Assembly (NCBI GenBank): GCA_905221605.1
Contig: CAJNDS010000027.1
Coordinates: forward strand, 187,244 to 251,243
DNA from: Symbiodinium natans
Lineage: Eukaryota > Sar > Dinophyceae > Suessiales > Symbiodiniaceae
Reading direction: 5' to 3'
Length of the DNA stretch: 64,000 bases
Numbering within the stretch: the stretch's first letter is position 1; every line of letters starts with the position of its first letter. This document shows, piece by piece, positions 34,395 to 38,625 of this stretch. A program made the translations under genes and the position numbers. The notes below the pieces were generated by a model. The model had not been told where the DNA came from, searched no databases, and saw only the letters and a list, made by a program, of their open reading frames with translations.

Positions 34395-37300
34395 GTCCGG
34401 ATGACGCGCGATGATCAAAACCACCACGGGCCCTGCCTCTTGAACTGCAGCCGAGGCAGTGCCGGTGTCCTGCAACAGCCAACTGCACAAATGCATTCTG
34501 CCCTATTCATCTCTGGCAAGGGCACCAATTAACCAATTAACTTTCGCGGATTCTCCTTTCGCGAGACTTTCGCGGACATCTTGCTTTACATCTTCAGAGC
34601 GTTTTAAATATAGAACCAAAGACACGGACCTTTGCATCAACCCTCAATATGCCATCGTGTCCTGCTCCGGCGGCTTGTTCACGACTAACTCACCGAGCAA
34701 GTCAGCGGCATCTTCTGGCGCGGCCTGACTACAAAGGCAAGGTGCAATGGCGACGTGCTGAGGCAGCAGGAAAGATCACGCCCAACATCGCACACCACGC
34801 AAAGAAACAACTGCCAATCTTTGCTAAGAATGGCTCTTGCTCCGCTGATGGCTCGTTTTTGGCCATCGTGTCAAGCAGCTCTGCCGACTCCTCAAGCAAG
34901 TCATCGAAGTCAAAATTGCCCCCCCGGCCCCCGCCCCCCCCCCGGGCCCCCAGCGTGCACCACTATCCATACCTAGGACCTAGAAGACACATTTGCAAGT
35001 AACCTGCATCGGCCGGTTATCCGTTTCATCAATCAAGCTGGCTCGCATTGTTGTTTCGAAAGCCCGTGGGTCCGTGTGTACTCCGAGGTGCTCGAGCAGA
35101 GCATATCAAAAGCCATACGGTGCGCCCACAAAGGCTGTGCAGCTAGAGGCAGCTACTGGTAGCAGCGACGCACGATGATGCGCGCAGTGGGCGGTCCTCA
35201 TGCTCTGGCTCTGGTGGCGCCACTTTGGCCACATCTGCAGAAGCCGCTGCAGCTTCCTGCGCCAGCTCTTGTGACATGGCTCACAAAGTCTAGCGTCGAC
35301 TGGGCAATCACGGCCAAAAAGGAGCAACACCTGACAAAACTGCCTCTACGCCAACCTGGTCCATGATACTCCACGATATTCAAGACGAACACGGGCCCGA
35401 CCTCTGGAACTGCAGCCGCGGCAGTGCCGGTGTCCTGCAAATGCCAACGGCAAACGGCATGATGTCCTATTTAAACTCGTACCTACGCCGTGCCGTCGTC
35501 TCCTGCTCCAGCGGCTGATCCACAGCTAACTCACCAAGCAAGTCAGCGGCATCTTCAGGCGCAGCCTGACTACAAGGTGCAAGCGCGATGTGCTGAAGCA
35601 GAAAGAGCACGCCAACACGCAAAAACACTGACAATCTTTGCTAAGAATGGCGCTTGCTCTGCTGACGGCTCGTCTTTGGCCATCGTGTCAAGCAGCAGCG
35701 CCGACTCCTCAAGCAAGTCATCGAGAAAGAGGAGCATTGCGCGGTACAGTACCCTTACCCATGCCGATGCCCGTGAACCCCAACCATTCATGACTTCTGC
35801 ACCTCACAAAACTGCCCTCTACGCCAACCTGGTCCATGATACTCCATGATATTCAAGACGAACACGGGCCCGACCTCTGGAACTGCAGCCGCGGCATTGC
35901 CGATGTCCTGCAAACGCCAGCGGCAAAAGGCATGACGTCCTATTATCCCTGGCCAATCTCGTACCTATGCCGTGCCGTCGTCTCCTGCTCCAGCGGCTGA
36001 TCCACAGCTAACTCACCAAGCAAGTCAGCGGCATCTTCGGGCGCAGCCTGACTACAAGGTGCAAGCGCGATGTGCTGAAGCAGAAGAGCACGCCAACACG
36101 CAAAAACATTGACAATCTTTGCTAAGAATGGCGCTTGCTCTGCTGACGGCTCGTCTTTGGCCATCGTGTCAAGCAGCAGCGCCGACTCCTCAAGCAAGTC
36201 ATCGAGAAAGAGGAGCATTGCGCGGTACAGTACCCTTACCCATGCCGATGCACTTGAACCCCAACAGCGCATGACTTCTGCACCTGACAAAACTGCCCTG
36301 AACGCCAACCTGGTGCATGATACTCCAGGATATTCAAGACGAACACGGGCCCGACCTCTGGAACTGCAGCCGCGGCAGTGCCGGTGTCCTGCAAATGCCA
36401 ACGGCAAAAGGCATGATGTCCTATTTAATCTCGTACCTATGCGGTGCCGTCGTCTCCTGCTCCAGCGGCTGATCCACAGCTAACTCACCAAGCAAGTCAG
36501 CGGCATCTTCGGGCGCAGCCTGACTACAAGGTGCAAGCGCGATGTGCTGAAGCAGAAGAGCACGCCAACACGCAATTACACTGACAATCTTTGCTAAGAA
36601 TGGCGCTTGCTCTGCTGACGGCTCGTCTTTGGCCATCGTGTCAAGCAGCACTGCCGACTCCTCAAGCAAGTCATCGAGAAAGAGGAGCATTGCGCGCTAC
36701 AGTACCCTTACCCATGCCGATGCACTTGAACCCCAACAGCGCATGACTTCTGCACCTGACAAAACTGCCCTCTACGCCAACCTGGTCCATGATACTCCAT
36801 GATATTCAAGACGAACACGGGCCCGACCTCTGGAACTGCAGCCGCGGCATTGCCGATGTCCTGCAAACGCCAGCGGCAAAAGGCATGATGTCCTATTTAT
36901 CCCTGGCCAATCTCGTACCTATGCCGTGCCGTCGTCTCCTGCTCCAGTGGCTGATCCACAGCTAACTCACCAAGCAAGTCAGCGGCATCTTCGGGCGCAG
37001 CCTGACAACAAGGTGCAAGCGCGATGTGCTGAAGCAGAAGAGCACGCCAACACGCAAAAACATTGACAATCTTTGCTAAGAATGGCGCTTGCTCTGCTGA
37101 CGGCTCGTCTTTGGCCATCGTGTCAAGCAGCAGCGCCGACTCCTCAAGCAAGTCATCGAGAAAGAGGAGCATTGCGGTACAGTACCCTTACCCATGCCGA
37201 TGCACTTGAACCCCAACAGCGCATGACTTCTGCACCTGACAAAACTGCCCTGAACGCCAACCTGGTGCATGATACTCCATGATATTCAAGACGAACACGG

Positions 37301-38625
37301 GCCCGACCTCTGGAACTGCAGCCGCGGCAGTGCCGGTGTCCTGCAAATGCCAACGGCAAAAGGCATGATGTCCTATTTATCCCTGGCCAATCTCGTACCT
37401 ATGCCGTGCCGTCGTCTCCTGCTCCAGCGGCTGATCCACAGCTAACTCACCAAGCAAGTCAGCGGCATCTTCGGGCGCAGCCTGACTACAAGGTGCAAGC
37501 GCGATGTGCTGAAGCAGAAGAGCACGCCAACACGCAAAAACATTGACAATCTTTGCTAAGAATGGCGCTTGCTCTGCTGACGGCTCGTCTTTGGCCATCG
37601 TGTCAAGCAGCAGCGCCGACTCCTCAAGCAAGTCATCGAGAAAGAGGAGCATTGCGCGGTACAGTACCCTTACCCATGCCGATGCACTTGAACCCCAACA
37701 GCGCATGACTTCTGCACCTGACAAAACTGCCCTGAACGCCAACCTGGTGCATGATACTCCATGATATTCAAGACTAACACGGGCCCGACCTCTGGAACTG
37801 CAGCCGCGGCATTGCCGATGTCCTGCAAACGCCAGCGGCAAAAGGCATGATGTCCTATTTAATCTCGTACCTACGCCGTGCCGTCGTCTCCTGCTCCAGC
37901 GGCTGATCCACAGCTAACTCACCAAGCAAGTCAGCGGCATCTTCGGGCGCAGCCTGACTAACAAAGGCAAGGTCGCCAGTGCGATGTGCTGAAGCAGAAA
38001 GAGCACGCCAACATCGCCAACACGCCAAAAACACTGACAATCTTTGCTAAGAATGGCTCCTGCTCTGCTGACGGCTCGTCTTTGGCCATCGTGTCAAGCA
38101 GCACTGCCGACTCCTCAAGCAAGTCATCGAAGTCCAATACTGCCCCCCCCCACCCCGGCCCCGAGCGTGTTTCATCATCCAAGCTGGCTGGCATTGTTGC
38201 TTCCAGGGCCTGTATGTACTCTGATGTGCTCAATCAGAGCTATACGGCGCGCTCCGAAATGTCAAAACGGCTGTGCAGCTACATGCAGCTACTGGTAGCA
38301 ACGGCACACAATGATACGGACAGTGGGTGGTCCTCATGCTCTGGCTCTGGTGGCGCCACTTTGGCCACATCTGCAGAAGCCACTGCAGCTTCCTGCGCCA
38401 GCTCTTGTGGCATGGCTCACAAAGTGGAATTTTGGGCAACCACAGAGAAGCAAGCTCCGTGCATCACCTCGCCATTCGACGTCCCACAAAAACAACATAG
38501 CAGCTGGGATCGAAACTTAATGGATGCTGGTCCTCCACAGCATCAAGCAAACTGGCTTGACCTGCAGCTTCCGCAGCCTGTGGACACTATGTTCAAAGCA
38601 GGCGGTTCAATCAAAATACCTCCCA
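34395..38625 (-). CDS. Gene with tandemly amplified acidic exons, unknown function
   Basis: Minus-strand order: about 38600-38490 (AAEAAGQASLLDAVEDQHPL); 38440-38340 (QELAQEAAVASADVAKVAPP and PEPEHED); 38233-38170 (MSTSEYIQALEATMPASLDD); then a three-exon module seen seven times: [A] DDLLEESA-LLDTMAKDEPSA and EQ-PFLAKI, [B] AAPEDAADLLGELAVDQPL, [C] AAAAVPEVGPVFVLNI. Near 35290-35040 the ELAQEAA and SLIDET exons recur, followed by the last, diverged module (34912-34400). A and B are separated by about 66 nt starting GT and ending CAG. The modules are acidic and helical. No domain is recognised. The 229-codon plus ORF at 37986-38675 lies antisense to this gene. Splice sites for A are not intact in all copies. 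Confidence 0.5.
35511..37898 (-). repeat. Tandem array of five ~480-bp units
   Basis: Unit starts lie at 35511, 35993, 36465, 36947 and 37427, giving lengths 482, 472, 482, 480 and 472. Units are nearly identical. A sixth, more diverged copy continues to about 38140, and another lies at 34640-34912. Length differences come from a 10-bp indel (TATCCCTGGCCAATC versus TAATC) and a 2-bp deletion near 37174. Confidence 0.96.

Follow-up and report, generated by a model that had tools for sequence, protein, structure and literature searches.

Does a tandem array of ~480-bp units in the genome of Symbiodinium natans encode the exons of a repeat protein, or is it a non-coding repeat in which remnants of exons stay open? 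The question was raised by an earlier note on the window, as we call the whole stretch of 64,000 nucleotides analyzed here. The note described three segments (E1, E2 and E3 below) that stay open in each of five units and proposed that selection keeps them as exons and ignores the introns. Judging from sequence comparisons, we consider it probable, at about 0.55, that at this locus a block of three mini-exons, coding for part of a putative acidic alanine-rich protein on the minus strand, has been duplicated in tandem. The rival readings considered below overlap, and the confidence placed in each of them need not total one.

Organization of the array

Tandem Repeats Finder reports an array at 35328-38130 with a period of 482, 5.8 copies and 94% matches, and the copy-to-copy spacing is 472-482 bp. 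This confirms the five near-identical units of about 480 bp, which lie head to tail at 35.3-38.1 kb and are further referred to as U1-U5. What the earlier description missed is a diverged copy at each end of the array, U0 at ~38.1 kb and U6 at ~34.9 kb; each of the three segments is present in seven copies, all on the minus strand. U0 and U6 sit in a duplicated module (38425-37790 vs 35289-34437) that opens with a further conserved block of 81 nt, X, having two differences between its copies. An in-frame TGA is located two codons upstream of the ATG of the putative exon X in the upstream (high-coordinate) module. In a search of the same genome (759,417,921 bases in 2543 contigs; the counts of such searches are lower bounds) the array matched this locus only.

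Table 1. Predicted features of the locus. Positions are those of the window; exon ends are the refined ones.
Feature	Positions	Strand	Predicted peptide	Remarks
Whole locus	34410-38425	-		two modules X-E1-E2-E3; the upstream (high-coordinate) module has E1-E2-E3 six times in tandem
X (putative exon)	38333-38413	-	MPQELAQEAAVASADVAKVAPPEPEHE	2/81 differences vs 35277-35197; ends putative
U0 E1	38048-38113	-	ESAVLLDTMAKDEPSAEQEPFL	alternative donor 12 nt earlier, after SAEQ
U0 E2	37891-37953	-	AAPEDAADLLGELAVDQPLEQ	
U0 E3	37790-37822	-	DIGNAAAAVPE	
U1 E1	37557-37622	-		
U1 E2	37419-37481	-	AAPEDAADLLGELAVDQPLEQ	63 nt
U1 E3	37308-37340	-	DTGTAAAAVPE	33 nt
U2 E1	37077-37142	-		
U2 E2	36939-37001	-		
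U2 E3	36828-36860	-		
U3 E1	36595-36660	-		
U3 E2	36457-36519	-		
U3 E3	36356-36388	-		
U4 E1	36123-36188	-		
U4 E2	35985-36047	-		
U4 E3	35875-35907	-		
U5 E1	35642-35707	-		
U5 E2	35503-35565	-		
U5 E3	35402-35434	-		
X, second copy	35197-35277	-	MSQELAQEAAAASADVAKVAPPEPEHE	
U6 E1	34825-34890	-	ESAELLDTMAKNEPSAEQEPFL	
U6 E2	34662-34724	-	AAPEDAADLLGELVVNKPPEQ	in-frame TGA five codons past the proposed donor
U6 E3	34437-34469	-	DTGTASAAVQE	

The plainest history of the locus has two steps: X-E1-E2-E3 was duplicated, and E1-E2-E3 was later amplified in the upstream copy. An older duplication would have copied the whole module, and unequal exchange would then have amplified E1-E2-E3 to six head-to-tail copies in the upstream module, perhaps partly in two-unit blocks. 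Four columns around the E3 acceptor show a strict alternation of unit types between U0 and U5. This pattern, like that of a two-unit higher-order repeat of about 955 bp, suggests that the array grew two units at a time. Columns near the alternating ones break the pattern, consistent with mixing of units by repeated exchange.

Several simple repeats were seen elsewhere in the window. A 190-bp array of the ATATAG hexamer occupies 38670-38860, ~0.25 kb upstream of the putative exon X. Interstitial telomere repeat arrays of the TTTAGGG type, with up to 26 copies, are located at 6119-6286, 28476-28654, 42664-42747, 52030-52113 and 9982-10023, the one at 42664 having an 8-base unit. A C-rich low-complexity run of ~250 bp lies at 31-282, near the left edge of the window.

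Frame breaks, divergence and coding signal

All four changes said to break a continuous frame were found again, and all lie between the segments: an extra base near 35603 in U5, common to U0; a TAG near 36699 in U3; a 2-bp deletion near 37174 in U2; and, past the second segment, an indel of 10 bp that U1, U2 and U4 carry and U0, U3 and U5 lack. Two more indels of 1 bp each, near 35944 (U4) and near 35343 (U5), are also outside the segments. Thus the placement of the breaks holds, but alone it is weak evidence (P 0.08-0.14): the chance of all four breaks falling outside the segments is P = 0.135, that of all five is P = 0.082, and for the five inner-unit indels P is 0.08-0.12. Resting on the named breaks, the claim as stated is only suggestive.

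Substitutions among the inner units amount to 10/249 in the segments vs 18/221 in the spacers (Fisher p = 0.045), and to 6/162 in the refined exons defined below vs 22/308 elsewhere (p = 0.095). The outer copies U0 and U6 are a better and firmer test than the named frame breaks; the segments had been drawn from the five inner units, the outer-copy sequence being outside that description. Between U0 and U6, 22 of 189 positions differ inside the segments vs 55 of 194 outside (a gap run counted as one), and 3 of 383 circular shifts of the segment mask, the unshifted one included, give a value as low. For U1-U6 the differences are 24/189 inside and 52/186 outside, with 8/375 shifts as low; the corresponding ranks are 10/366 for U5-U6, 8/365 for U3-U6 and 9/369 for U0-U1. 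With the refined exons these ranks become weaker (U0-U6, 11/383; U1-U6, 20/375; U5-U6, 17/366; U3-U6, 14/365; U0-U1, 68/369).

Over the wider U0-U6 module, the refined exons differ at 20/243 positions and the rest at 74/370, the Fisher value of 3.7e-5 not being independent, given that the refined ends and the thresholds were picked after viewing the alignment. The same two copies are separated by 12 indels, all outside the refined exons and none inside, and no stop or indel is found in the refined exons of any of the seven copies. The low U0-U6 divergence is mostly due to X and E1. Differences per exon are 2/81 in X, 5/66 in E1, 9/63 in E2 and 4/33 in E3; per intron, they are 36/210 (X-E1), 15/92 (E1-E2) and 23/68 (E2-E3). 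E2 and E3 are slightly below the introns preceding E2, and the E2-E3 intron, the fastest part, lifts the intron average. When the segments are drawn longer, the U1-U6 divergence of E2 (17/81) and E3 (15/70) equals that of the spacers (15/65 and 13/60). Since E2 and E3 are near intron rates and X and E1 are clearly conserved, conservation supports X and E1 well, and E2 and E3 mainly via their splice-type ends and the lack of indels. Conserved sequence extends beyond both ends of E1.

The dN/dS comparison that the earlier note had proposed yields ratios of 0.35-0.65, with p from 0.15 to 0.54. The ratio for X+E1+E2+E3 between U0 and U6 is 0.45 (random placement gives a value as low in 30% of trials); for E1-E3 it is 0.35 between U0 and U6 (19% of random trials as low) and 0.37 between U1 and U6 (15%). 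Between U0 and U1 it equals 0.65, matched by 54% of random trials. The U0-U6 ratio is lowest in the sense frame, the other five frames having 0.60-0.88, a small difference, and X and E3 carry replacement changes only. Therefore, of the proposal that selection keeps exons and ignores introns, the lower divergence of the segments and the position of the indels stand, but purifying selection on the encoded protein is not established.

In synonymous codon usage the proposed frame did no better than 19% of the random windows did; two other frames, which contain one and three stops, scored well above it. The reference set of 2858 codons came from six HSP70-type loci, represented by their longest open frames, the end-to-end HSP70 identity of which was unchecked. 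The joined product of 135 residues had a best Pfam E-value of 0.28 (11.7 bits vs a cut-off of 28.9) and no PDB match at E <= 1. Neither this product nor any of the nine open frames from the window that were also submitted to Pfam (ten proteins in all) scored above the cut-off. In one of the open frames, at 41073-41582 on the minus strand, a (CAG)20 tract (41411-41470) encodes a run of alanines, and there is an acidic stretch; the weak similarity of this frame to 60S acidic ribosomal protein in Pfam (E 0.01, below the cut-off) is probably compositional. Both E1 and E2 contain GACTTGCTTG, with E of 14-19 among the matches listed, and this is a lead only as regards a relation between the two exons.

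Many of these results would also be expected under the main rival reading, by which the units form a non-coding tandem array, derived from a segment with former exons or with none and now intronic or intergenic, the open segments being remnants. Such an array would fit the weakly uneven divergence of the inner units (p 0.045-0.095), the probability of 0.08-0.12 for their indels, the rates of E2 and E3, which are nearly those of the adjoining introns, the lack of significance of dN/dS and of support from codon usage, and the failure to find a homologue in the own genome, Pfam or PDB. It is harder to reconcile with the U0-U6 contrast in segments defined on the inner units, with 12 of 12 U0-U6 indels outside the refined exons and with splice-type sites conserved on one strand and not on the other. 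We regard this reading as credible but doubtful, and exons as probably the better one.

Splice-type sites and exon ends

The source genome is that of a dinoflagellate, and the dinoflagellate spliced leader has 104+101 exact matches in it (0+0 for the reversed control). Passages of PMC4083563 and PMC5177918 describe GC, GT and GA donors and AG|G acceptors in Symbiodinium introns. A splice-site model was built by spliced alignment of E. coli DnaK to seven HSP70-type loci of the same genome. Of 82 introns, 76 were used, five introns of L069 (low score) and one 45-bp intron of L068 being excluded; they are not independent, given that L066 and L067 are related copies with many common intron places. 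The donors are GC in 47, GT in 16 and GA in 13 introns, the program permitting only these donors and AG acceptors. AG before the donor (42/76) and G after the acceptor (71/76) were not imposed by the program. The phase is 0 in 55/76 introns, and the median length is 109.5.

The sites flanking the segments of the array share the form of the published Symbiodinium introns, as do the HSP70-type introns, whereas E1 has no AG-preceded donor in 6/7 units and splicing here is predicted. All seven units keep four acceptors and six donors when their minus strand is scored, some of these ten places being one AG|G scored as both; they include the acceptors of E1, E2 and E3 and the donors of E2 and E3. 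At the same thresholds, which were set from the proposed sites, no splice-type site is kept 7/7 on the plus strand, and a plus-strand gene was rejected. The number of minus-strand sites is ordinary (U1 has 5 acceptors, and the window has 12.6 per kb), and therefore the weight of the splice evidence lies in position and conservation. Among the stretches of 20-150 columns between conserved sites, only E2 and E3 are open multiples of three in all seven copies.

The acceptor of E1, TTGAG|GAG, is kept in 7/7 units in phase 0. The E1 donor TTA|GCAAAG (after FL) was rejected, as its score of -2.5 is under the 5th percentile of the model introns (-0.5). The donor after AEQ (AEQ|GCGCCA or AEQ|GAGCCA) scores better, with 3.6 in the inner units and 4.0 in U0, yet is weak in U6 (1.8). 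An alternative E2 site, TAG|GTACGA, was not the first choice: the frame of U6 reaches a TGA first, and E3 leaves the open frame. In contrast, CAG|GA and ACG|GC (ATG|GC in U6) preserve phase 0 in 7/7 units. We infer refined exons of about 18-22 codons for E1, 21 for E2 and 11 for E3, all in phase 0. The exon reading is favored by divergence, indels and splice-type sites, with boundaries that need shortening: PVFVLNI and the tail that follows VDQPLEQ more likely belong to introns, as does DDLLE in the inner units. Otherwise U6 would reach an in-frame TGA after the second segment, and past the breaks of U2 and U3 no further AG precedes DDLLE, the TAG of U3 itself providing an AG. The refined ends put both the U3 TAG and the 2-bp U2 deletion in the intron that precedes E1.

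Alternatively, the locus could be a dead or dying copy in which X and U0 work and the inner block is skipped or untranslated, its uniformity being due to youth and not to selection. The inner units do differ very little, no further AG is available ahead of DDLLE past the U2 and U3 breaks, and a duplication joint forms the left edge of E1 in these units, where the sequence is unlike that of U0 (59/82 differences) and U6 (54/82). However, the AG|G acceptor of E1 lies inside the conserved stretch in all seven units, and seven copies of the refined exons have neither stop nor indel, so we consider this reading unlikely. A continuous unspliced protein of 154-codon modules is largely refuted by the frame breaks and highly improbable: the minus strand does have open frames of 154 codons at 35943-36407 and 37377-37841, but the frame is broken in the other three inner units, U0 and U6, a stop separates E2 from E3 in U1, U2 and U6, and E2 and E3 are in different frames in U0, U3, U4 and U5.

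Predicted product and significance

That the array is transcribed and spliced, where exactly its exons end, and the existence and role of the protein are all inferred here from the DNA. If the three mini-exons were spliced in series with the GC/GT/GA donors and AG|G acceptors of this genome, every exon would start and end in phase 0, and units could be gained or lost without a frame break. The product would be a repetitive acidic, alanine-rich chain with about 50-54 residues per unit, most likely serving as a flexible spacer or a low-complexity binding stretch. The stronger proposal, a length-variable acidic repeat protein generated from a phase-0 three-exon cassette by unequal exchange, possibly in two-unit steps, is tentative and, in our estimate, rather improbable.

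Repeat proteins made from duplicated symmetric exons include titin PEVK and the products of collagen genes. Like these, the array has short, phase-matched repeated exons, whose number could change without a frameshift; it differs in that its exons come in blocks of three and its product is putative, the sequence relation having been compared via Pfam and PDB. In dinoflagellates, tandem exon duplication is stated to be common in a passage of PMC8045281 that concerns Symbiodiniaceae and Polarella, and the array is likewise head-to-tail, in one orientation and in a dinoflagellate genome. The same paper also reports PacBio IsoSeq for S. natans. The cases described in the relevant part of PMC7245778, one of two sources cited there, are whole single-exon genes, e.g. 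PCP and ice-binding genes, whereas the array repeats a three-exon block inside a putative gene without a recognizable domain. Tandem exon duplication is thus already known in dinoflagellates, and the locus is a new instance.

The array is probably an ordinary case of gene lengthening in these algae. If its units are not spliced in series, it adds to the young tandem repeats that contain remnants of exons. If they are, it provides a compact system in which to ask if the permissive splice sites of dinoflagellates allow exon blocks to multiply in frame, and a comparison of unit numbers across Symbiodinium strains would reveal the pace of length change in such genes. Should the cassette proposal prove true, relaxed splice sites of the dinoflagellate kind, with AG|G on either side, would accommodate exchange at nearly any point, and intragenic change of copy number would routinely generate variation among the proteins of these algae.
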